64,000 nucleotides of DNA from Rhodoferax sp. GTDB lineage: Bacteria; Pseudomonadota; Gammaproteobacteria; Burkholderiales; Burkholderiaceae_C. Below are positions 42,960 through 53,980 of this stretch, in pieces. Position 1 is the stretch's first letter. Every line of letters starts with the position of its first letter. The stretch is from the NCBI GenBank assembly GCA_019449595.1, contig JAGRPL010000014.1, positions 124,001 to 188,000 of the forward strand. The letters run 5' to 3'. The notes beneath the pieces are model-generated. The model worked only from the letters and a program-made list of their open reading frames with translations. It was not told where the DNA came from and did no database searches. The position numbers were made by a program, and so were the translations under genes.

Positions 42960-43448
42960 ATGAACACCCTCACCCATTTTGACGCCCAAGGTCAAGCCCA
43001 TATGGTAGACGTGGCCGCCAAGCCTGCAACCCATCGTATCGCCATCGCCAGTGGCCGCATTGAAATGCTTCCCGCCACGCTGGCCATGGTCGAGGCCGGC
43101 AACGCCAAGAAAGGCGATGTGCTGGGGATCGCGCGCATTGCCGGCATCCAGGGTGCCAAGAAAACGGGCGACCTGATCCCGCTGTGCCACCCTCTTGCCC
43201 TGACCCGCGTGGCCCTGGACTTTCAAGTGGTGCCCGCCAACCCCACGCAGGCGGCCCACGTGCTGTGCCAGGCTACAGCGGAAACCGTAGGCCCAACCGG
43301 CGTGGAAATGGAAGCCCTGACCGCTGTCCAGGTGGCACTGCTCACCATCTACGACATGTGCAAGGCCGTGGACCGCGGCATGACCATCACCGACGTGAAG
43401 CTGCGGGAAAAGCATGGTGGCAAGTCAGGGAGTTTTGTCGCCGGTTGA
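42960..43448 (+). CDS. moaC: Cyclic pyranopterin monophosphate synthase MoaC
   Basis: 162 residues. Converts (8S)-3',8-cyclo-7,8-dihydroguanosine 5'-triphosphate to cyclic pyranopterin monophosphate in molybdenum cofactor synthesis. The [15 protein letters not shown] and [25 protein letters not shown] segments carry the active site. The ATG at 42960 is preceded by an AGGTAAAG site. It overlaps the downstream convergent ligase gene by 24 bases. No other moa genes are nearby. Confidence 0.96.
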
Positions 43449-44918
43449 TGCCGCCGCCCAGCGCGCCTGCGCTTCCGGAAATGCCGCCTTGAAACGCTGC
43501 AGAAAATACACCGCCTCCTCATCGCGCCCCAGCATCACGGCACTTTCAATCAGTTTTTCGATCACGCGCGGCTCGGCCGAAAAATGCAGCAACTGGTGCG
43601 CCAGGGTGTTGATCTGCACCGCAGTGTCCGGCGTGAGGGGTGTGGTGGTGAGTTCCGCAAAGCGCACCTGGTCCCGGAACAGCCAGGAATTCCGGACCTT
43701 TTCCAGCGTACCCTCCTGGTAGGCGCTGGCCCGCTCAGCCACAGGCAGGTACAACTGGCTGATGCGCCAGTAATCCCAGGATGAAAAACCTATTGCCGCT
43801 ACAAACAGCATAGCCACACACGCAGATACGGTGCGGCCGAAGACCTTCAAACGCATCGATTCTGACGCGCGCCACAGCATCCAGATACTCAAGCCTGTCG
43901 CCATCTGAAACGGTCCGTACCACAACGGATACTCCAGCATGCTGTGCAGCACAATGACCGCCAGTACCCCCCATGCCAGTTGGCGTGTGGCGTCCTGCTC
44001 GCTCCAAGGCCGGGCTCGCCATACCCACCAAAGCCCCACGCCACACACCGTCAACGCCAGTGGCACACCCAGCTCCACCGCCAAGTGCAGGGGCAGATTG
44101 TGCGCATTGTCCAAAATGTCGCAAAAGCGCGCGCCAGGGTACAGCGTTACGAAATGGGCGTAGCCCAACTCCCCCCAGCCCCAGCCAGTCCAGGGCTTTT
44201 GGGCGATCAAATACAACACGTTGGACCACAGCACCCGCCGGCTACTGCACCCCGCTTCTTCGGAGAACCGCCCGAGCAGGCCCCCACTGCTGAAGCCCGT
44301 TGTTGCTTCCAGCAACCGGGGTAATGCCAGCGCAGCAACCAGGTAGGCAACCCATGCACCTGCGCTCACCGCAACCACGCGCCATTGCCCCCTTGGATTC
44401 CACGCAACCATCAGCACAAACACCAACAGCCATTGCAACAAGCCGGTGCGCGAACCGCTGGCAGCATTGCCCAATGCCAGCAGCACAATGCCGACACTCA
44501 GTGCCACCGATCGCACCATGCGTGTGCCCGATTGAAATCGCGACGGCCTTTGGGCTACCTGCCACAGCAGCGCCAATAACCCGATGCTGGCCAGCGTCGC
44601 AAACTGGTTGCGCTGGCGCAGGTTGGCGAAGGCTTCGCCCACGCCTACGTCATCCACCCAGGGACTGAACGCTGGCGCAAAACCGAAGTATTGCAACAGC
44701 GCCATGACAGCACTAAGCAGTGCCGCAATGAGCCACCCCGAAGCGATTGTTCTGGCGGTCAGCTGCGATCGAAACAACCACACGAAGAGGGCGCACGAAG
44801 CGGCTGCCAGCCAGGGAATAACGGAAGGAGTGGGGCCGTTGGTGAAGGGGGTGAGCCAGGGCAGAATCAATACCGCCGGTAGTCCAATCCAGCCTCCCCA
44901 CAAATCCGAAGGTTTCAT
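43425..44918 (-). CDS. PglL/Wzy-type O-oligosaccharide ligase 1
   Basis: 497 residues, polytopic. Around ten membrane helices up to about residue 390 are followed by a C-terminal periplasmic tail. The [10 protein letters not shown] motif, the [16 protein letters not shown] His loop and the [12 protein letters not shown] segment are those of PglL/O-antigen-ligase-like enzymes (Wzy_C family). Such enzymes transfer lipid-linked glycan to pilin or LPS in the periplasm. The start at 44918 overlaps the stop of the next ligase gene by four bases. A weak copy of the dispersed repeat lies in the coding strand. Located downstream of pilA, so pilin glycosylation is the likely role. Confidence 0.8.
43798..43836 (+). 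repeat. Dispersed ATAGCT-core element, copy H (weak), inside the ligase gene
   Basis: Reads GCTACAAACAGCATAGCCAC then ACACGCAGATACGGTGCG. Alignment to copy B by eye shares the GCTA, CATAGC, CACnCAGAT and GGTGC blocks. It falls in a membrane-helix coding region. Chance similarity cannot be excluded. Confidence 0.3.
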
Positions 44919-46606
44919 GGGAACTTCAGCTTGCCCAGTTCTGGGTACTTGCTTTCTGCCAGCGCCTCCCAATTGGCACGTATGCCTGCGTAGGTCTTTT
45001 CACCATGCATGGCACGCATGACTTTGAGTTGTCGGACGGCTTCTTCTCGGTTGCCATTGAGGGCTAAGGCAAGAGCGTACCGATTCTGTATTGCTGTCCA
45101 TGGAAAGCGCATCGCAGCACTCCGTAGCAATTCGATTTCCGAAATATTCATTCCAGAGGACGGAACGATTCGGGTAGCTGTGACCATCGTATCTAGTTGC
45201 GTTAACAAGTATGTGGTCGGGCGCTCATATTCAATAGGAGTCTTCCCAATGTGCAATGCGTCGAAACGAGCGACCCGAAAATCCTCTTCAATCCTCACGT
45301 ATTCTGTTACGGACCAAGCCAAAAACAACAACAACAACAGCGCGCTCATTGCAGTGAAACTTAACCTCCACCGATAGATTCGACTCGGCGCAAGATGCGC
45401 CTCAAGCACACCTACCACTAACATCACCGGAATCAAGAAATAGGCATACGAAAAAGGGTATTCCAGCATGGAATGAACCACCACTGGGACCACAAGTGCA
45501 ATGCAGTACCAAGGCACCAGGGAAGTTGTTGACCTCAAACGATGCCAAAACCAGTTGGCCAAAAATCCTAGCAGAGCAACTGCAATTGGAAACCCCAAGC
45601 CAACGACAAGATCCAGCACTAGGTTATGGGCATATGTAAACGGTTCACTGTGCTGGTAATGATCCAAGATTGCGTTATGGGCTTTGGAAATTTCACGGAA
45701 ACCCCATCCAAGCCACGGATGCTGCATTGCAGCTTCCAATAGTTGCGCCCATACCAACAGACGAGATCCAGCAGATGTATCGAGGCTGGCGCCACCACTA
45801 ACAAAATAGCAGTGGGTAATAAATTTCGGCCACGCCCATAACAGAAACAACAATCCAATCCAACCCGCAATGATCGGTGCCGCCGTGAATCGAAAAGGCA
45901 CAACGCGGCGCTTGAATACCCACCAAGCAGTCAACACCACAGCACTCAATAAACCCGTTCTAGATTCACTCATTGCCAACCCGAGAACCAGTAGTGCGAG
46001 CAATACATTCGCCAGCGCGTAGCCCACGCGCCTTGATTCAAAGAGGAGTCCTACAGAGGCCACCCCCATCAACTGTAATGTTGCAAAGTGATTGGGCTGC
46101 CCCACATTGGCCCCTGGCCGGCGAAATCCAGGCAAACGGACGATCCAGTCAACCAAGTTCCATACATCGAATGCTTGAGCCAATGCAAGAAAAACAGATA
46201 AAACTGCGCACGCTGACAGAGCAATCGCCAATTGATAGACCAACGATTGGGTATTTGGATTTATTCCTTCAGAGAGAGAACGCGCACCCCATGCCCCACC
46301 CACGGCAATAGCCACAGAACACATAGCCAAATAAAAGCAGATGACCAGCGCATCGCCAAAAAAGTGGATTAATCCTAATCCAAACTGTATCCAAACCAGC
46401 AAGACCATGACCAGCGGTAGAAAGGCGGCTGTTGGCCATACAAAGAAATGACACCTCTGTTTCTTTTGCTCCATCAGCTCCACAGCAAAAAACCAACTGA
46501 TTGCTGCAAATGCAAGAACCTCACTGTGCCAACTGACCCAAGGTAACAAATGCAAGGGTTGCAACCAACTTGCAAGCAGTAGCAAAAAACCGGGCCAATA
46601 TTTCAT
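44915..46606 (-). CDS. PglL/Wzy-type O-oligosaccharide ligase 2
   Basis: 563 residues, polytopic (about 12 helices), with the same motif set as the previous gene: VGQPNHFATLQL, the AHNLVLDLVVGLGFP loop and VVHSMLEYPFSY. The paralogue pair is adjacent, overlapping by four bases. This gene is visibly richer in A/T and uses more A/T-ending codons than its neighbours, a mark of possible transfer. Directly downstream of pilA, with an intrinsic terminator between. Two tandem ligases suggest two glycan or two acceptor specificities, for example pilin and LPS. Confidence 0.8.
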   Translation of the reverse strand: MKYWPGFLLLLASWLQPLHLLPWVSWHSEVLAFAAISWFFAVELMEQKKQRCHFFVWPTAAFLPLVMVLLVWIQFGLGLIHFFGDALVICFYLAMCSVAIAVGGAWGARSLSEGINPNTQSLVYQLAIALSACAVLSVFLALAQAFDVWNLVDWIVRLPGFRRPGANVGQPNHFATLQLMGVASVGLLFESRRVGYALANVLLALLVLGLAMSESRTGLLSAVVLTAWWVFKRRVVPFRFTAAPIIAGWIGLLFLLWAWPKFITHCYFVSGGASLDTSAGSRLLVWAQLLEAAMQHPWLGWGFREISKAHNAILDHYQHSEPFTYAHNLVLDLVVGLGFPIAVALLGFLANWFWHRLRSTTSLVPWYCIALVVPVVVHSMLEYPFSYAYFLIPVMLVVGVLEAHLAPSRIYRWRLSFTAMSALLLLLFLAWSVTEYVRIEEDFRVARFDALHIGKTPIEYERPTTYLLTQLDTMVTATRIVPSSGMNISEIELLRSAAMRFPWTAIQNRYALALALNGNREEAVRQLKVMRAMHGEKTYAGIRANWEALAESKYPELGKLKFP

Positions 46607-46670: not shown

Positions 46671-47177
46671 TTAGAGGTTACCGCGGCACGATCCTGGCAA
46701 GAATTTGGGATCAACGTCTGTGAAACCAGCCGCAGGATTCCCACAGCGCCATGCAAAAATGGTTTTACCAACATCCGTGTTGGTCATCACAGCTGACGCG
46801 CTGGTCATGGGTTCGAGAGTAACCTTCCCGCCCGCGACATAAGAAGAACCAGATTTTTTGTTGTTTATGCCTTGGCTGGTAACTGTGATCACACCAGCAT
46901 CAGTCGTTTCAATCAACGCAACATACTTCGACGATCCGCCAGCTGCACTGGACTCACAACCCCAGGCACCCGCGGCGGGCAACTGGCTAGACGCAGATTG
47001 AACAGTCTCGGTAATGGAGGTGCGGCAACCCGAAGCAGCCAAAATCACTTCAGACATCTTGGCACGAATGGTGTAGTCCTGGTACGCAGGCAATGCCACC
47101 GCAGCCAAAATACCAATGATCGCCACGACGATCATCAATTCGATCAGGGTAAAACCCTTTTGCAGAGAACGCTTCAT
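46671..47177 (-). CDS. pilA: Type IV major pilin (PilA-like)
   Basis: 168 residues. Prepilin leader MKRSLQKG is cleaved before Phe9, giving the mature [19 protein letters not shown] helix with the conserved Glu5. Four cysteines follow (two pairs; the last, Cys in GSCRGNL, is near the C-terminus), as in disulfide-looped pilins. A Ser/Ala/Pro-rich stretch near residues 61–83 ([10 protein letters not shown] and SSAAGGSS) is a plausible O-glycan attachment region. A strong AAGGAG site is 6 bases before the ATG, and a sigma-54 type promoter lies 40–55 bases upstream. Downstream are two ligase genes; upstream is the ATPase operon. Confidence 0.93.
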
Positions 47178-47216: not shown

Positions 47217-47232
47217 AGCAGATTTCATGCCA
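47217..47232 (-). promoter_or_regulatory. Sigma-54 promoter of pilA
   Basis: The minus strand reads TGGCATGAAATCTGCT, with GG and GC exactly 10 bases apart, matching the -24/-12 consensus TGGCAC-N5-TTGC closely. The predicted start is about 12 bases past the GC, leaving a leader of about 28 bases before the pilA ATG. PilR-type activation is expected. The other bases of the 182-base gap to the ATPase gene include A/T-rich stretches suited to activator or IHF sites. Confidence 0.8.
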
Positions 47233-47359: not shown

Positions 47360-49780
47360 TCACTTGATACACACCGACCGAACCATCTTCAAATCGGTCA
47401 ACCCCATCATGACCTTCTCCATGCCGTCCATCTTCAAGGTCCGCATGCCCCCCTCAACGGCCGTGGCAAAGAGCTCGGCAACTCGGGCCCGTTCCTGGAT
47501 GAGCTTCTTGACACTGTCATCAGCCACCAGCAATTCATGCAAGCCGACCCGCCCTTTGTAGCCGGTCTTGTTGCACTTGTCGCAGCCTACGGCTTTGTAC
47601 AGCTTGATGTGCCCATCTTCACCGTAGGTTTTCAACCAGCTGTCCAGCAATTTTTTACTCTCGCCGGCATAGTCTTCCTTCCAGGCTTTCGAGTGGCGCA
47701 ATTCCTCGGCATATTCCGCTAGAAACAAGCGGAGCTCCTCCGCGTCGGGCACATAGGCGACCTTGCAATCGCACAATTTCTTGGCCAGCCGCTGCGCCAG
47801 AATCCCCAACAACGCGTCCGCAAAGTTGAATGGGTCCATGCCCATGTCCATCAAACGGGTGATGGACTCCGGTGCGGAGTTGGTGTGCAGCGTGGAAAAC
47901 ACCAAGTGGCCCGTCAGTGACGCTTCCACGCCCATGGACACGGTCTCCTTGTCGCGCGACTCCCCCACCATGATGATGTCGGGGTCCGCACGCAGGAAGG
48001 CACGCATGATGAGGGCAAAATCGATCCCCGCCTTGCGGTTGATCTGCACCTGTCGCAGGCCCTTTTGGGTAATTTCGACCGGATCTTCTGCCGTCCAGAT
48101 CTTGGTATCCGGCGTATTCAAGAACTTGAGAATGGAATGCAACGTGGTCGTCTTGCCCGAGCCGGTGGGGCCGCAGACGTAAAACAGGCCATAGGGCTTG
48201 CTAACGGTGGCTTCCAGCCGGGTCTTGTTGCTGGGCGTCAGGCCCAGCTTTTCCAGCGGAATGGGCTCCCCGGCAGCCAAAATCCGCATGACCACGTCTT
48301 CCACTCCGCCAGCCGACGGAATGGTCGCCACCCGCAGTTCGATGTCCAGTGGCCCATACTTCTTGAACTTGATCTTGCCGTCCTGCGGCTTGCGGCGTTC
48401 TGAAATATCCAGGTCGCACATGATCTTGAGGCGCGTGACCATGGCTTGCCGGAAATGCGCCGGCACTTCCACGTAGGGCACCAGACTGCCATCAATGCGA
48501 AACCGGATACCCGTCTTGAACTTGCCCGGCATGGGCTCGATATGGATGTCCGATACCTTCTGGTTGTAGGCATCGATGATGACCTTGTTGACGAACTTCA
48601 CCAGTTCGTTGTCGGCGGCAGCAGACTCCAACGAGTCATCATTGACGCCATCGTCAATGGGGCCCCCATCCATGTCGGCCAGCAACTGGTCAATGGTGCT
48701 GGTATCGGCAGCCGTGCCAAACAACTGCGCCAGTGTCTCCTGGAATTCGGTTTGCGTGGTGACCCGGTACGCGAACTTGCTGATGCGGGGAAACACCTGC
48801 GGCACCACCCGCGAACCGCGCACGGCTTCCGGGTCCATGCACATGATGACCAGCCCCTCGGGAGACTCCTCCAGCGGAATCCAGCCTTGCTCCCCGATGA
48901 ACTCGCGCTTGAGGGCACCGTGCAGCATTTCGGAACGAATGCGCCCAGGATTGAACGCCTCGTAGGGCACACCGAAAAACTTCGACAACGAAGGGCCGAT
49001 TTGCGCCGGCTTGATCTTGTATTGGGCCATGAGCAAATGCTCGACCGATTGCCCGTCATTACGTGCATCCTGAACACACTGGTTCAGTTCGTCGTCCGTC
49101 AACAGCCCATCGGCGACCAGCGCATCGTACTTGGTCGCCTTCTTGCGCGGCGTGGTACTGGCTTCCTTGACGCGCTGGCGGATGGCGGTCGCCAGCGTCT
49201 TGCAGAGCTCGTTGACCCCGTCCACTTCCAGTTCGCCAAAGGGCTCATCGCTCTTGTTGTTGATCACCTGCAGCACCCCGTGCAAGGTGTCGCCTTCCAG
49301 AATAGGGGCCACCAGCATTTGACGGGTCCGGTAGCCCGAGCGCTTGTCCACCTCCTTCAGAAAGGTCAAGGCCGGGTGGATGCGCTTCAAGGCGTCATCG
49401 TCATACACGTCCGCCAAGTTCAACGGTTTCTTGCTGAAGGCGGCATATCCGGCAATGCTTTGCGGCGAAATCGGCAGCTTGAGATCGCGGCTGCTGTTCA
49501 ATCCGGTTTTGATCTTGGAGATGATCGCCGTCTGGTCTTCCGTCACAGCGTACAAGGTCAGCCGGTCGGCATTGAGGAGCTTGCAAATGTCCTGGCTGGC
49601 CTCGAGCATGATCTGCTCCAGGTTCTCGGTGGCATGAATGCGCGCCGTGACCTGATGCAACTGCCGATAAAAAAGCGCTTCAAACGTCATGCCCCGCTTC
49701 TGGGACGGCAGCTTCTGCGACTCGAAGAACGCCTGCTCCGCAGATTTTTCCGCAGATCCGGCAGAGGTAACTGCATTCAT
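47360..49780 (-). CDS. GspE/PilB-type ATPase with N-terminal GAF domain
   Basis: 806 residues. Residues about 35–205 form a GAF-like sensor domain (ADRLTLYAVTEDQ, LVAPILEGDTLHGVLQVIN). About 215–340 is an MshEN/GspE N-terminal domain whose usual RLG-type c-di-GMP motif is poorly kept. The rest is the secretion ATPase: Walker A GPTGSGKTTT (near 536–545), ARADPDIIMVGE, GHLVFSTLHTN His box. The zinc cysteines read CDC and CDKC with a roughly 60-residue spacer, unlike the compact C-x2-C pairs of GspE. It is the last gene of an operon with FHA, PP2C and kinase genes, 182 bases ahead of pilA. No pilC or pilD is visible. It may be PilB itself or a dedicated alternative motor. Confidence 0.85.
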   Translation of the reverse strand: MNAVTSAGSAEKSAEQAFFESQKLPSQKRGMTFEALFYRQLHQVTARIHATENLEQIMLEASQDICKLLNADRLTLYAVTEDQTAIISKIKTGLNSSRDLKLPISPQSIAGYAAFSKKPLNLADVYDDDALKRIHPALTFLKEVDKRSGYRTRQMLVAPILEGDTLHGVLQVINNKSDEPFGELEVDGVNELCKTLATAIRQRVKEASTTPRKKATKYDALVADGLLTDDELNQCVQDARNDGQSVEHLLMAQYKIKPAQIGPSLSKFFGVPYEAFNPGRIRSEMLHGALKREFIGEQGWIPLEESPEGLVIMCMDPEAVRGSRVVPQVFPRISKFAYRVTTQTEFQETLAQLFGTAADTSTIDQLLADMDGGPIDDGVNDDSLESAAADNELVKFVNKVIIDAYNQKVSDIHIEPMPGKFKTGIRFRIDGSLVPYVEVPAHFRQAMVTRLKIMCDLDISERRKPQDGKIKFKKYGPLDIELRVATIPSAGGVEDVVMRILAAGEPIPLEKLGLTPSNKTRLEATVSKPYGLFYVCGPTGSGKTTTLHSILKFLNTPDTKIWTAEDPVEITQKGLRQVQINRKAGIDFALIMRAFLRADPDIIMVGESRDKETVSMGVEASLTGHLVFSTLHTNSAPESITRLMDMGMDPFNFADALLGILAQRLAKKLCDCKVAYVPDAEELRLFLAEYAEELRHSKAWKEDYAGESKKLLDSWLKTYGEDGHIKLYKAVGCDKCNKTGYKGRVGLHELLVADDSVKKLIQERARVAELFATAVEGGMRTLKMDGMEKVMMGLTDLKMVRSVCIK

Positions 49781-49813
49781 ATTTCAAACTCCTGCCATGC
49801 GCGCCAGCGGCAA

Positions 49814-50470
49814 TCAGTGTTGCACGAACTGCATCTGCGTGCCCGCCAATTCGATCAGGTCTCCGTTTTTCAGGGCCACCGGTTCCGACCTGATCGGGGA
49901 GCCGTTGAGCGTGGGGTTGCCAGCGCCCTCCACATGGTGGACCACAAACCCGTGGTGGCGGCGCGTGATGGCCGCCACCGCGACACCCGGCTTGCCGATC
50001 GTGGTCACCACCTTGGTCAGCGGAACTTCCCGACCAGACGCCGCGCCCGACAGCACCTTGATCGCAGCCTGAAACGCCCCCAGGCCCGTGGAATCTCCGG
50101 CTACCGTGGGAAAACCCGAAGGGGTGGCTGCCGCTGCGGGTTGCGGCTTGAACACCATGGTCTTGTCAAAGTTGTCTGCCGCACCGTCGCCCACAAACTT
50201 GATTTTGTACTTCCCGATCTCAATACCATCGCCGTTGTGCAGCTGCTGTTTCTTGATCGCCTTGCCGTTCACGTACGTGCCGTTGGTGCTGTTGAGGTCT
50301 TCCAGAATCACCTCGTCACCATTCATCTGCAGCACCGCGTGCTCCCCGCTCACGGCCAGATTGTCAATCACGATATCGTTGTACGGCCTGCGCCCCAAGG
50401 TGGTACGGTCCTTGGTGAGCTGGACTTCCTTGATCACGACCTCATCGATCGAAACGATCATTTTCGGCAT
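49814..50470 (-). CDS. Tandem-FHA-domain phosphothreonine-binding protein
   Basis: 218 residues from an ATG at 50470 with AAGGAG 6 bases upstream. FHA domain 1 (about 1–95) has LGRRPYNDIVI, VSGEHA and LNSTNGTYVNG, so the phosphopeptide Arg, Ser, His and Asn are present. A linker (about 100–135, Pro/Ala-rich) leads to FHA domain 2 (about 135–215) in which the key Arg is replaced (TIGKPG) and the loop reads RRHH and TLNGS, so binding may be altered. FHA domains read kinase marks on partner proteins. Lies between the PP2C gene (48 bases) and the GAF-ATPase (33 bases). Candidate adaptor between kinase and ATPase (inference). Confidence 0.88.
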   Translation of the reverse strand: MPKMIVSIDEVVIKEVQLTKDRTTLGRRPYNDIVIDNLAVSGEHAVLQMNGDEVILEDLNSTNGTYVNGKAIKKQQLHNGDGIEIGKYKIKFVGDGAADNFDKTMVFKPQPAAAATPSGFPTVAGDSTGLGAFQAAIKVLSGAASGREVPLTKVVTTIGKPGVAVAAITRRHHGFVVHHVEGAGNPTLNGSPIRSEPVALKNGDLIELAGTQMQFVQH

Positions 50471-50518
50471 GATCGACTCCTTTTCCTGTAATTTGTTTCT
50501 GGACAACGCGTCCACGCC

Positions 50519-51304
50519 CTACTTCCCGAGCAATCTTGCGATTAAACCCCGCTTTTCGGCTGACTCGCCCACTTCCACCATCAGCACGGAAATATTGTCG
50601 CGGCCCCCGTTTTCATTGGCCGCGTCGATCAACTGGCTGGCCTTTTGATCCAGCTCCATCGGAGCCGCAACAATTCTAGCGATTGCCGCGTCGTCCACCA
50701 TGTCGGAGAGGCCGTCAGAACACATCAGGTAGATATCCCCGGCCGCCACCAAATGTTCATGGATATCCAGCAGCACCGTATCGTCTACGCCCAGCGCGCG
50801 CGTCACCAGATTCCGGATGGACGAGGTCATCGCCTGCTCGGGACTGATCAAACCGGCATCGATTTGCTCCTGCAACAGGGAGTGGTCCCGGGTAATTTGC
50901 TCCAACACACCGCCCCGCAGGCGGTAGCAGCGCGAATCGCCGATATGGCCGACCAGCAGCGTATCTTCCCGGAAAACCCCCACCACCAGGGTGGTGCCCA
51001 TCCCGGCATAGTGTGCATTGGAACTGGCCGCATTGAAGATGGCCAGGTTGGCGTTGTCCACGCAGATTTCCATGGCCCGGCGCACCTCCCGGGCCCGCGC
51101 ATCCTGACCGGCTTCGGACAGCCAGCGGCCCAGCTCGGTTTTGATGAACACCGTGGCCATGCCACTGGCAATCTCGCCCGCGTTGTACCCCCCCATGCCA
51201 TCCGCCAGCACCGCTAGGTTGGTGGCCTCGTCAAAAGCCACCGAATCTTCGTTGTTCTCCCGGACGCGACCGGCATCCGTCTTTGCGCAAAATTGATACA
51301 TCAT
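50519..51304 (-). CDS. PP2C-family serine/threonine phosphatase
   Basis: 261 residues with the full PP2C motif set: NNEDSV, VLADGMGG, GHIGDSRCYRL, MCSDGLSD and GGRDNISVLMVEV, which bind two metal ions. It dephosphorylates Ser/Thr residues in the cytoplasm. The start has two ATG codons in a row (51304 and 51301). It is 6 bases after the kinase stop, so the eraser is produced together with its writer. No membrane segments. Similar to PppA/Stp1-type phosphatases by length. Confidence 0.94.
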   Translation of the reverse strand: MMYQFCAKTDAGRVRENNEDSVAFDEATNLAVLADGMGGYNAGEIASGMATVFIKTELGRWLSEAGQDARAREVRRAMEICVDNANLAIFNAASSNAHYAGMGTTLVVGVFREDTLLVGHIGDSRCYRLRGGVLEQITRDHSLLQEQIDAGLISPEQAMTSSIRNLVTRALGVDDTVLLDIHEHLVAAGDIYLMCSDGLSDMVDDAAIARIVAAPMELDQKASQLIDAANENGGRDNISVLMVEVGESAEKRGLIARLLGK

Positions 51305-51310
51305 GGAAGT

Positions 51311-53980
51311 TTAGTGCCCCGCCTTCGCGGTATCTCCACCCGAAGCGGGATCCGACCGGGCGGCTGTTTGAATAACCGTTTTCTCGAATGCGACCTGCGT
51401 TGCCGGGATCGTCGCCGCAAATACCACCGCCTCGTCACGGACAGGCTCCGTGGTGACCGCCTGCGTTGCCGCCAACGGCACCGTGCTGCCCGGAATTTGT
51501 CCCATCACGCTGCGCAAATCCGCTGCAAACTGGCGGCCGTTCTGGTAGCGCGTTTCGGGTCGTTTACCCAGCGCCCGTGCCACCACGTCGGCCAGCGCCG
51601 GCGGCAGTTCCGGCCGCATCTGGCGCACGTCCGGAGCCTCTGCGTTGGCAATGGCGTACATCAAGCTCCCCATCGAGTCACCCCGAAACGGCAACTCGCC
51701 TGTCAGCATCTGGAACAGCATGACCCCCAGCGAGTAAAGGTCGGAGCGCCCATCCACCGGCTTCCCGGCCAACTGCTCGGGCGACATGAAACTGGGGGTT
51801 CCCAATACCAGTCCGGTCCGGGTCTTGTTCAAGCCGGTAATGCGCGCAATGCCGAAGTCGGTTACCTTGACCGTGTCACTTTCCGGCTCGTACATGATGT
51901 TGGCCGGCTTGATGTCGCGGTGCACCACATGGTGTTCGTGGGCATAGGCCAACGCTTCGGCCACGCGCGCCACAATGCCCAGCACCACCGGAACCGCAAG
52001 CAGCTGTCCCGCCTTGCAATACGCTGCAAGGTCCCGCCCCTTGAGGAACTCCATGGCGATGTAGGCCAGGTCGTGTTCTTCCCCGGCATCAAAAATGGTC
52101 ACGATATGCGGGTGCTGCAAGCGCCCCGCCGTCTCGGCTTCCCGGAAAAAGCGGGCGCGGGCATCCACCAGGTCATCCCCTCCAAACTCTTGGCTCAATG
52201 CCAGAGTCTTGATCGCCACCATCCGTCCGATCTTTGGGTCCCGCCCCTGGTACACCACACCCATAGCCCCTTTACCCAGTTCCCGCTCGATCTGGTAACG
52301 CCCCAGCATGGGCCTCTCCACGCCACCCTGCGGCGGCAACATTCCGTCCAAAGGATCACCTGGTCTGGCCGCCGCTGCAGGACTTGCGGCACGGTCCAGT
52401 TTGGACTGGATATCTTTGTATGTGCCATCAAAAGCCGCCATGTACGCGTAAACGGCTCGTGCTTTTCCCGGTTGGTGCTTGTGTTCAAAGTCGGTCGCCA
52501 GGCTGTACAAGTCCCCCATCACCGCGTCCGTCAAGGGCACGCGGCGCAAGCGGTCAAATGCCATGTCAAGCTGCCCCTGCCCCTGCAAAGCCAGACCCAT
52601 CATGTGATGGGACTCGGGCACCCCGGCGTCAGCGTTGCCCACCTTCAGCAACCGCCGGCCGATGACGGCCAGAGACCCCAGCACCAGCACCGTGGCCGGC
52701 AGCACCAGCGCAAGCCAGGTCGCAGCCAACACCAGCCCGCCCCACTCCAGCGCCAGCAAGGCTGCCAAGAGCACCAGCGCGGCAACAGCCGCCACGCCCG
52801 TCGCCAGCCGGGGCAACACCCCTGCCACGCAGACGGCCATCAGCAAGCACAGACCCCACGTCACCCACCCGCCCCATCGCGGCTGGGTGATGGCATGTCC
52901 GTTGAGAATGCTGGAGGTGGCGTGGGCAATCCGCTCCGCCGGAGACAACGCCAACGTGCCGGGCACTCCGGGTGACCCTCCTGCACCCTGCGCCGTCACG
53001 CCAATGATGACGATCTTGCCCGCATAGCGGGTGGCAGGAATCTTCCCGCTCAGCACGTCATAAAACGAATCCGACGCAAATGCCGGCTTGCCGTCCCGCC
53101 CCGGATAGAACTGGGACAGCATGCGCGCCGCACCGTCAGTCGGAATGCGCAGTGAACCCAGTTGCACCGCGTCGCCCGCCTGAAGACGGATATCGGCCGC
53201 CTTCAGGCCCAGGCTGTGGGCCGCTGCCAGCAGGGCCATGGAAGGCACGGCTTTCTCACCGGCGTGCAGCAGCAAGAGTTCCCGGCGCGGCGAGCCCCCG
53301 GCATCCGGGAGCCATTCCATGTGTCCCAGGCCAGCCGCCTCGCGGCCGATGGATTCGATGGGCGGTTGCCCGCGCGACGCCGGCATGGAAAACCCGGCGG
53401 GGTCGTCGATGGCACTTTTCAGGGCATACGGTGGCAGGGAGCGATCGGCCTCGCCCTGTAACGCCCCCAAGGTATAGGCGGACGGCAGCAACACGTTGCC
53501 GGCGTTTTTTATGCTGGTGGCCAGCACCGCATCCGTGTCAAGCGCCAGCTCCGCCTCTGCCAACATCTGCCGCCACTGCGGATGGGGTAGCGCGCCGTCG
53601 GGTAGCGTCTCCAGTGCCGCCTTCATCTTGCGGATGACCCCCAGGCCGGGATCTGACTGGGGTTCTAGGAAGGGAACGGCGTACACCAGTGTCTTGGCCT
53701 TGGCCGCCGCCAGCTGGTCAATCAGACGGGCATGGATGTCGCCGGACCAGGGCCAGCGGCCCAATTGGGCCATACTCTGCTCATCAATGGCAATAACGCC
53801 AATGCGTTCGGAAGGCTGGTGCGTGGTGTGGGCGCTGGCGAAGTCGTAGTAGCGACGCTCCAGTCTGTCGATGGCGCCGCTTGCCAGGTGAAGTCCGATG
53901 ACGGCGATCACTGCCACCAGTCCGGCGAACCAATCGGCTCGCCAGACGGCGACCGATTTAGATACAAAAGATTTCGCCAC
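51311..53980 (-). CDS. CHASE2-domain serine/threonine protein kinase
   Basis: 889 residues. An N-terminal membrane helix (about 15–33) is followed by an extracytoplasmic CHASE2 sensor (about 35–345; RYYDFA, VIAIDEQSMAQLGRWPW, and a KIVIIGVTAQG strand). Three or so helices at about 367–447 lead to a cytoplasmic linker and a Hanks-type kinase domain at about 556–820: GKGAMGVVY, AIK, HRDIKPAN (near 686), DFG (near 706) and GTPSFMSPEQL are all present, so it should be active. A Thr/Ala-rich tail of about 60 residues follows. First gene of the operon kinase–PP2C–FHA–ATPase. The signal sensed is unknown. Confidence 0.94.
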   Translation of the reverse strand: MAKSFVSKSVAVWRADWFAGLVAVIAVIGLHLASGAIDRLERRYYDFASAHTTHQPSERIGVIAIDEQSMAQLGRWPWSGDIHARLIDQLAAAKAKTLVYAVPFLEPQSDPGLGVIRKMKAALETLPDGALPHPQWRQMLAEAELALDTDAVLATSIKNAGNVLLPSAYTLGALQGEADRSLPPYALKSAIDDPAGFSMPASRGQPPIESIGREAAGLGHMEWLPDAGGSPRRELLLLHAGEKAVPSMALLAAAHSLGLKAADIRLQAGDAVQLGSLRIPTDGAARMLSQFYPGRDGKPAFASDSFYDVLSGKIPATRYAGKIVIIGVTAQGAGGSPGVPGTLALSPAERIAHATSSILNGHAITQPRWGGWVTWGLCLLMAVCVAGVLPRLATGVAAVAALVLLAALLALEWGGLVLAATWLALVLPATVLVLGSLAVIGRRLLKVGNADAGVPESHHMMGLALQGQGQLDMAFDRLRRVPLTDAVMGDLYSLATDFEHKHQPGKARAVYAYMAAFDGTYKDIQSKLDRAASPAAAARPGDPLDGMLPPQGGVERPMLGRYQIERELGKGAMGVVYQGRDPKIGRMVAIKTLALSQEFGGDDLVDARARFFREAETAGRLQHPHIVTIFDAGEEHDLAYIAMEFLKGRDLAAYCKAGQLLAVPVVLGIVARVAEALAYAHEHHVVHRDIKPANIMYEPESDTVKVTDFGIARITGLNKTRTGLVLGTPSFMSPEQLAGKPVDGRSDLYSLGVMLFQMLTGELPFRGDSMGSLMYAIANAEAPDVRQMRPELPPALADVVARALGKRPETRYQNGRQFAADLRSVMGQIPGSTVPLAATQAVTTEPVRDEAVVFAATIPATQVAFEKTVIQTAARSDPASGGDTAKAGH

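Follow-up and report, generated by a model that had tools for sequence, protein, structure and literature searches.

We propose that a motor ATPase with a GAF domain, encoded in a 64,000-nucleotide stretch of a Rhodoferax genome (hereafter the window; C11:124001-188000 of a 3.37 Mb genome in 14 contigs), acts as a PilB-class extension motor for type IVa pili. It appears likely that this GAF motor represents a separate family within the class, that it is set in a control cassette for cyclic AMP (cAMP) and phosphothreonine, and that in places it stands in for PilB. The proposed role in pilus extension comes from comparing genomes: in a sample of the order, about a third of the genomes positive for PilM (47/143) are without canonical PilB, and 46 of these 47 have the GAF motor. 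We are more tentative, at slightly less than even chances, about a wider proposal for a large part of the order: cAMP would be a direct allosteric ligand of the pilus motor by way of the GAF domain, not by way of transcription, a phosphothreonine switch would act on the motor in addition, and repeated losses of PilB would be explained by the ability of the GAF motor to replace it.

The preliminary description of this DNA, which was made from the window's letters, placed kinase, PP2C phosphatase, FHA and ATPase genes in one tight run on the minus strand with gaps of 6, 48, and 33 bases. The run is indeed present at the coordinates listed below, and the gaps are as described provided that the FHA gene begins at its ATG, which is preceded by GGAG (the longest frame extends to 50515). 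The same description called the FHA product a double-FHA protein, and here only the first half agrees: one FHA stretch is recognized by Pfam, while the second, FHA-like half receives no Pfam score, with a GKPgvavAaIt stretch that is conserved despite this.

51311-53980, minus strand: CHASE2-membrane Ser/Thr protein kinase with a GTG start and a C-terminal tail containing EKTVI (Pfam CHASE2 and Pkinase; conserved operon place)
50519-51304, minus strand: PP2C phosphatase of the Stp1 type (NCBIfam NF033484, 248 bits against a cut-off of 230)
49814-50470, minus strand: FHA protein with an intact FHA1, an FDKTMV linker and a degenerate second FHA-like region (Pfam FHA)
50159-50161, minus strand: codon of Thr104 (numbered from the ATG) in the linker DKTMV, a candidate phosphothreonine (motif counts in relatives)
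47360-49780, minus strand: GAF-MshEN-T2SSE motor ATPase of 806 residues (Pfam; invariant nucleotide-binding motifs; separate clade)
49172-49624, minus strand: GAF domain of the ATPase, residues 53-203 (best solved-structure match 1ykd, CyaB2; conservation)

A Conserved Operon

The loci that were compared comprise 20 stretches from genomes of the same genus and order, the best 80 of 577 confirmed named loci, and the window. One of them (L044) has no GAF match and was left out and two (L087 and L139) duplicate others, leaving 98 non-duplicate loci with the window included. All named loci with a genus or family in the title are from Comamonadaceae, to which we take those genera to belong, and the set is biased to this extent; the named loci closest to the window are from Rhodoferax. 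Some of the gene absences may also partly reflect contig ends. Whatever subset is present, the order kinase, PP2C, FHA, cyclase, phosphodiesterase (PDE), cyclic nucleotide monophosphate (cNMP)-binding protein, and GAF ATPase is the same in 98/98 loci. Because the order never differs, the gene run is not due to chance, and the lack of a conserved order in relatives, which the preliminary description had named as grounds for giving up its proposal, is not what we observe. The PP2C and FHA genes are present in 92 of the loci, the kinase in 65, the cyclase in 62, the PDE in 64, and the cNMP-binding protein, which is fused to a rhodanese, in four. The five genes from kinase to PDE are complete in 48/98 loci, and since that is so the four-gene set of the window is, on gene content, a cut-down version of a signaling operon with five to seven genes; its particular form, with kinase, PP2C, and FHA and with neither cyclase nor PDE, recurs in 11/98.

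Motor Family and Loss of PilB

The GAF motor belongs to the PilB/GspE superfamily of extension ATPases, as it has the T2SSE domain and the nucleotide-binding and Cys motifs. An alignment of 20 sequences, in which the nucleotide-binding motifs are invariant, shows GPTGSGKTT, ADPD..MVGE, and HTNSA together with the second Cys pair. At the first pair of the zinc-type motif most rows read CxC, with CxxC in some rows from other families. None of the equivalog models claims the protein, which scores 467.6 bits against the PilB model (TIGR02538, cut-off 675.65), 382.9 bits against TfpB (NF053534, cut-off 850), and 427.7 bits against GspE of type II secretion (TIGR02533, cut-off 630.25), and in a tree the GAF ATPases form one fully supported clade apart from PilB, TfpB, and GspE. 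The genome of the window has all three of these above their cut-offs, namely canonical PilB (808.4 bits) followed by PilC- and PilD-like genes (L147), GspE (657.6 bits), and TfpB (899.3 bits; L150:9249-11087, C13:377483), the last with no GAF domain in Pfam, in addition to MshE-like, Tad-, and PilT/PilU-like ATPases that were named by inspection. PilB, TfpB, and the GAF motor thus coexist in the species of the window.

Canonical PilB is above its cut-off in 45 of 61 relatives and the GAF ATPase is found in 32. PilM is above its cut-off in 31 of these 32 (the exception is 88% complete) vs. 21 of the 29 without the GAF ATPase. In nine of the relatives PilM and the GAF ATPase occur without PilB, and no first-look candidate in them, with every candidate scored, reaches the PilB cut-off. 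The sample of the order consists of 200 genomes with completeness of at least 97%, and the scoring for PilB and for the GAF motor covered the top five to six candidates of each; PilB is found in 111, the GAF motor in 75, and PilM in 143. The GAF motor co-occurs with PilM in 75/75 genomes, as would be expected of a component of type IVa pili. The 143 PilM-positive genomes divide into 29 with both motors, 67 with PilB only, 46 with the GAF motor only, and one with neither, which is G082. The 46 GAF-only genomes are spread over 15 families, and because individual families hold mixed motor states, with "both" and "GAF only" genomes in f11 and f23 and "PilB only" and "GAF only" genomes in f21, the change from PilB to the GAF motor probably occurred more than once.

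The places from which pilB would have been lost can be examined directly. The reference order, seen in G046, is CorC-pilB-pilC-pilD, and all nine GAF-only relatives have pilC (64-69% identical to that of the window's genome) followed by pilD and lack an intact pilB ahead of it. At seven of these loci a CorC-like gene, named by inspection, comes before pilC, directly so in six, and there is no CorC match at the remaining two pilC loci (L158 and L160). In G038 a short frame between the CorC-like gene and pilC (L156:5875-6330, C15) corresponds to the last 152 residues of PilB with 63% identity, and by this likeness it is a remnant of the lost pilB. The GAF motor is, from these comparisons, most likely the stand-in for canonical PilB in many species of the order. 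Three limits apply to these comparisons: PilM overlooks some piliated genomes, in that 15 genomes with PilB above its cut-off have no match to PilM at 1e-60; relatedness is not considered in the Fisher test of PilB vs. the GAF motor, so that its p of 2.5e-16 overstates the case; and the ATPase tree has long branches that leave the placement of the GAF clade beside PilB and TfpB unsure.

Cyclic AMP Genes and the GAF Domain

The additional operon genes of the relatives point to cAMP. The gene after FHA encodes a CHASE2 class III cyclase (PF05226 and PF00211), and the next a protein of the metallo-beta-lactamase fold with a PDEase_II match (PF02112 is above its cut-off in the three proteins tested). 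At times a cNMP-binding domain fused to a rhodanese also lies directly ahead of the GAF motor (e.g., L053:8211-9248 and L043:9282-10373). The cyclase has the residues of a class III adenylate cyclase, as at least 98% of the 59 sequences retain the two metal Asp, the Lys and Thr/Asp for adenine, the Asn, and the Arg, with DKYMGD (Lys) and YTViGDxVNlgsRLE (Thr, Asn, and Arg) as in adenylate cyclases. CyaB of Pseudomonas aeruginosa (3r5g) is among the best solved matches. The PDE-like proteins have the features of a class II cAMP phosphodiesterase, with HxHxDH kept in 64 of them and HxFNxxIWPD aligning with 4ojv, a 3',5'-cyclic-nucleotide phosphodiesterase 1; they fall under the cut-off of NF041851, the NCBIfam model for cyclic-nucleotide-degrading enzymes. 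On the ATPase tree the cyclase and PDE vary together (10 independent pairs, with a mean of 6.5 in agreement and none opposed; median p 0.016).

Piecemeal loss is seen within the genus of the window. Among the ten genomes searched, five have both cyclase and PDE beside the motor, G001 has the cyclase only, G026 and G032 have the PDE only, and the window's genome and G029 have neither; the G032 locus (L058) still shows a cyclase-like stretch in the locus comparison. The window's genome encodes a 307-residue class III cyclase-FHA protein elsewhere (C13:1043444; L154:7426-8349), which is a possible source of cAMP for the GAF motor. All ten genomes of the genus that were searched have a frame of 306-337 residues that matches the cyclase weakly, with the FHA fusion tested in the window's genome alone.

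It is because the additional genes encode an adenylate cyclase, a class II PDE-like enzyme, and a cNMP-binding protein that we consider cAMP as the GAF ligand, and the GAF domain itself is consistent with this. Its best solved-structure match by sequence is the cAMP-bound GAF of CyaB2 (1ykd, 3.4e-24). The cAMP contacts listed for CyaB2 GAF-B (R291, T293, I308, T309, D356, and N359; PMC4411481) correspond in the 1ykd alignment to R73, T75, I90, K91, D145, and S148 of the motor. R73, T75, and D145 are the same residues as in CyaB2 and are invariant in 91/91 rows, position 90 is conservatively I or V, K91 is invariant at a backbone contact, and position 148 holds S or T in place of the N of CyaB2. 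We predict that the GAF domain binds cAMP. A further candidate, control of the motor by cyclic di-GMP (c-di-GMP) through its MshEN domain, was rejected because the c-di-GMP-binding motif RLG...LxxQ (PMC5013675) occurs in 0/93 ATPases within residues 200-330.

A Predicted Phosphothreonine Circuit

The kinase, phosphatase, and FHA protein retain their residues for catalysis or binding: HRDIKPAN and DFG of the kinase are conserved in 61 orthologues, and, with duplicates included, DGMGG, GDSR, and GGxDN of the PP2C and GR, SGxH, and STNG of FHA1 are each conserved in 94. A candidate phosphorylation motif, [DE][KR]T[MVIL][VIFLM], is found in 75/94 FHA proteins, chiefly as [DE]KTM after FHA1, and in 19/65 kinases, and it is nearly confined to them (0/94 PP2C, 0/62 cyclases, 1/64 PDEs, 0/4 cNMP-binding proteins, and 1/93 ATPases). 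The FHA-linker motif accompanies the kinase in 59/66 rows with a kinase vs. 10/22 rows without one, a strong association in raw counts (Fisher 6e-5). The idea that the two are lost together is only suggestive on the tree, however: under a slightly stricter definition of the motif, 8 independent pairs include 3.2 in agreement and 0.1 opposed, which is short of significance. Thr104 of the linker and the kinase tail are accordingly put forward as predicted kinase substrates and FHA1 as their predicted reader. The proposal in the preliminary description that threonine phosphorylation and a GAF ligand are inputs to the motor is likely.

Alternative Explanations

The explanation that survives best, albeit an unlikely one to which we give perhaps a quarter of the weight, is that the ATPase is a pilus motor whose GAF domain either has a ligand different from cAMP or persists as a structural relic, with cAMP acting through the cNMP-binding protein. 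Several observations speak for it and against cAMP as the ligand. R73, T75, K91, and D145 are invariant in 59 rows with the cyclase and in 32 rows without it (T152 differs in one row), and the idea that the pocket decays where the operon cyclase is lost was rejected on this equal conservation. The NKFDE motif, which is kept in most but not all known cNMP-binding GAF domains, is incomplete: N174 and F181 are invariant, the K is shifted by one, and the D and E positions are E and V in the window. The second sequence match is the HD-GYP protein 4mcw, which has a similar DKRTGYRT stretch and which is also the first row in a Foldseek comparison. For that comparison the N-terminal part was modeled with AlphaFold (mean pLDDT 79.6; the rows cover residues 1-182 of the model), the full-length model being poor (mean pLDDT 53) and not used, and the other fold matches are PtsP (22.6), PDE5A (19.3), cAMP-bound Lcd1 (18.7), and CyaB2 (16.1); modeled fold matches of this kind do not by themselves name a ligand. 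Set against all of this are the sequence match to CyaB2, which is far the best (4mcw follows at 5e-8 and the GAF domains of PDE10, 5, 2, and 6 are lower), the three identical and invariant contacts among those listed, and the presence of the adenylate cyclase and the class II PDE-like gene in well over half of the loci.

Somewhat less probable is that the GAF ATPase is an accessory, priming motor and that TfpB replaces PilB in the species without it. Work on Acinetobacter baylyi has established TfpB as a second motor there (PMC8213720). TfpB is above its cut-off in G048 as well as in the window's genome, and six more of the nine GAF-only relatives (G038, G041, G047, G056, G059, and G060) have matches of TfpB length and profile range, so that a TfpB-type ATPase is probably present in seven of the nine. 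The other two, G051 and G052, argue against this explanation, as neither has a TfpB-type match among its PilB-profile candidates. The matches of G052 other than the GAF motor are a GspE above its cut-off, one adjoining a divergent PilC, and a weak one. G051, assembled as one contig, has two PilB-profile matches at 1e-60, the GAF motor and one in a separate cluster, and because the latter has a divergent PilC and pilin-like genes of its own beside it, the GAF ATPase is, by this gene context, the only free candidate for the extension motor at least in G051. In addition, the GAF motor is missing in just one of the 47 PilM-positive genomes without PilB, in a sample of 200 where TfpB itself was left uncounted. 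We prefer the GAF motor as the replacement for PilB.

We regard it as improbable, more so than the role for TfpB, that kinase, PP2C, and FHA are a separate signaling unit that adjoins the motor gene by accident. Two points count in favor of a separate unit. Trios of this kind occur in type VI secretion loci, where PpkA-PppA-Fha is the threonine phosphorylation pathway, and the likeness lies in the grouping of kinase, PP2C, and FHA. Six of the compared loci lack PP2C and FHA, five of them near a contig end, and in the sixth (L056, G051) the motor is truly without an adjoining trio. The neighbor here is instead a pilus-type motor, and none of the ten window neighbors tested by Pfam is a type VI gene, which agrees with the preliminary description (no search of the whole genome was made for such genes). 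The FHA protein scores 47.3 bits with the TagH model, under the cut-off of 120. The constant order, with PP2C and FHA adjoining the motor in 92/98 loci, speaks against an accident.

That the GAF ATPase powers type II secretion or another filament is very improbable. Generic homology to GspE favors it, but 12 of the 32 relatives with the motor lack a GspE above its cut-off and nearly all have PilM, pilA lies on the motor's strand inside the compared flank in 67/98 loci, and secretion genes number 0/10 among the window neighbors tested. The preliminary description had left the choice between a secretion and a pilus motor open; the type IVa pilus is the part that stands, together with the phosphothreonine and GAF inputs, and it had missed both the additional operon genes and the role as a stand-in for PilB.

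Proposed Mechanism and Comparison with Known Systems

We suggest that two CHASE2 membrane sensors, the kinase and the adenylate cyclase, feed the motor in the full operon. The kinase would phosphorylate threonines, likely Thr104 of the FHA linker and those of its own tail, FHA1 would read the phosphothreonine, and the PP2C phosphatase would reset the system; the sites and the direction of control are predictions. The cAMP made by the cyclase would bind to the GAF domain, placed ahead of an MshEN-like part that lacks the c-di-GMP motif, and alter motor activity, while the class II PDE-like enzyme would clear it. In the species of the window the phosphothreonine arm would be what is left at the locus. 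The cyclase and PDE genes are gone there, so that any cAMP would be supplied from elsewhere, for example by the cyclase-FHA protein, and as canonical PilB and TfpB are kept the GAF motor would be the third motor of its class. Elsewhere in the order, in many families, deletion of canonical PilB would have left the GAF motor in place, with or without TfpB.

The GAF motor resembles PilB in its T2SSE core, MshEN-like N-terminal domain, co-occurrence with PilM, and position near pilA in most loci, and differs in its equivalog score, its extra GAF domain, and in not adjoining pilC in the genomes read. Like TfpB of A. baylyi, it belongs to an additional motor family that is distinct from PilB and is encoded away from the pilBCD locus, although its score is far under the TfpB cut-off and the TfpB of the window's genome, at another site, is without the GAF domain. 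MshE-type ATPases provide the model of a second messenger that acts directly on a pilus motor; the GAF motor lacks their motif in 93/93 cases and has a GAF domain in front instead. In comparison with the GAF domains of Anabaena CyaB2 and mammalian PDEs, the R, T, and D contacts for cAMP are kept, whereas here a single GAF with a partly kept NKFDE motif is found on a motor ATPase. The Chp-CyaB-Vfr system of P. aeruginosa likewise links a class III adenylate cyclase to type IV pili, but cAMP there controls transcription via Vfr (PMC11656802), and the effect predicted here is directly on the motor.

In the open-licence literature that was searched, to the extent of the parts available and with subscription papers outside its scope, we found no description of the motor, the operon, or the loss of pilB. 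A term search shows "GAF" to be absent from PMC11656802 and PMC6668835, and the portion seen of a Ramlibacter genome paper mentions three PilB paralogues with no detail (PMC3164672). If the GAF ATPase is an extension motor, surveys that require PilB misjudge species such as those described above. If the mechanism is also true, it would represent a natural swap of second-messenger input, in which c-di-GMP on MshEN gives way to what is probably cAMP on GAF, with a Ser/Thr kinase circuit added.

Pilin and Neighboring Genes

The features beyond the motor gene in the window are as follows.

46671-47177, minus strand: pilA, type IV pilin (Pfam Pilin and N_methyl)
47217-47232, minus strand: sigma-54-like site TGGCATGAAATCTGCT, 55 nt ahead of the pilA start (TGGCA-N7-TGC[ATG] pattern)
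44915-46606, minus strand: PglL/Wzy_C-type ligase adjoining pilA (Pfam; neighbor in many compared loci)

The preliminary description placed pilA next in line after the motor gene, and it is a pilin by Pfam, yet it lies 182 bp off with a sigma-54-like site of its own. Sigma-54-type control of pilA is usual for type IVa pili. The pattern TGGCA-N7-TGC[ATG] occurs within 300 nt upstream of 25/49 pilA genes, that of the window included, vs. 1/94 PP2C genes (duplicates included), and we read pilA as a separate sigma-54-type unit on the strength of this pattern.

A second, diverged relative of the motor with no GAF match, 44-47% identical in a frame of 809 residues, is located at L044:5033-8317 (G038, C70). 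After pilA there is a tandem pair of PglL/Wzy_C-type ligases on the minus strand (44915-46606 and 43425-44972), which probably serve O-glycosylation of the pilin, and the relatives have one, two, or none inside the flank.

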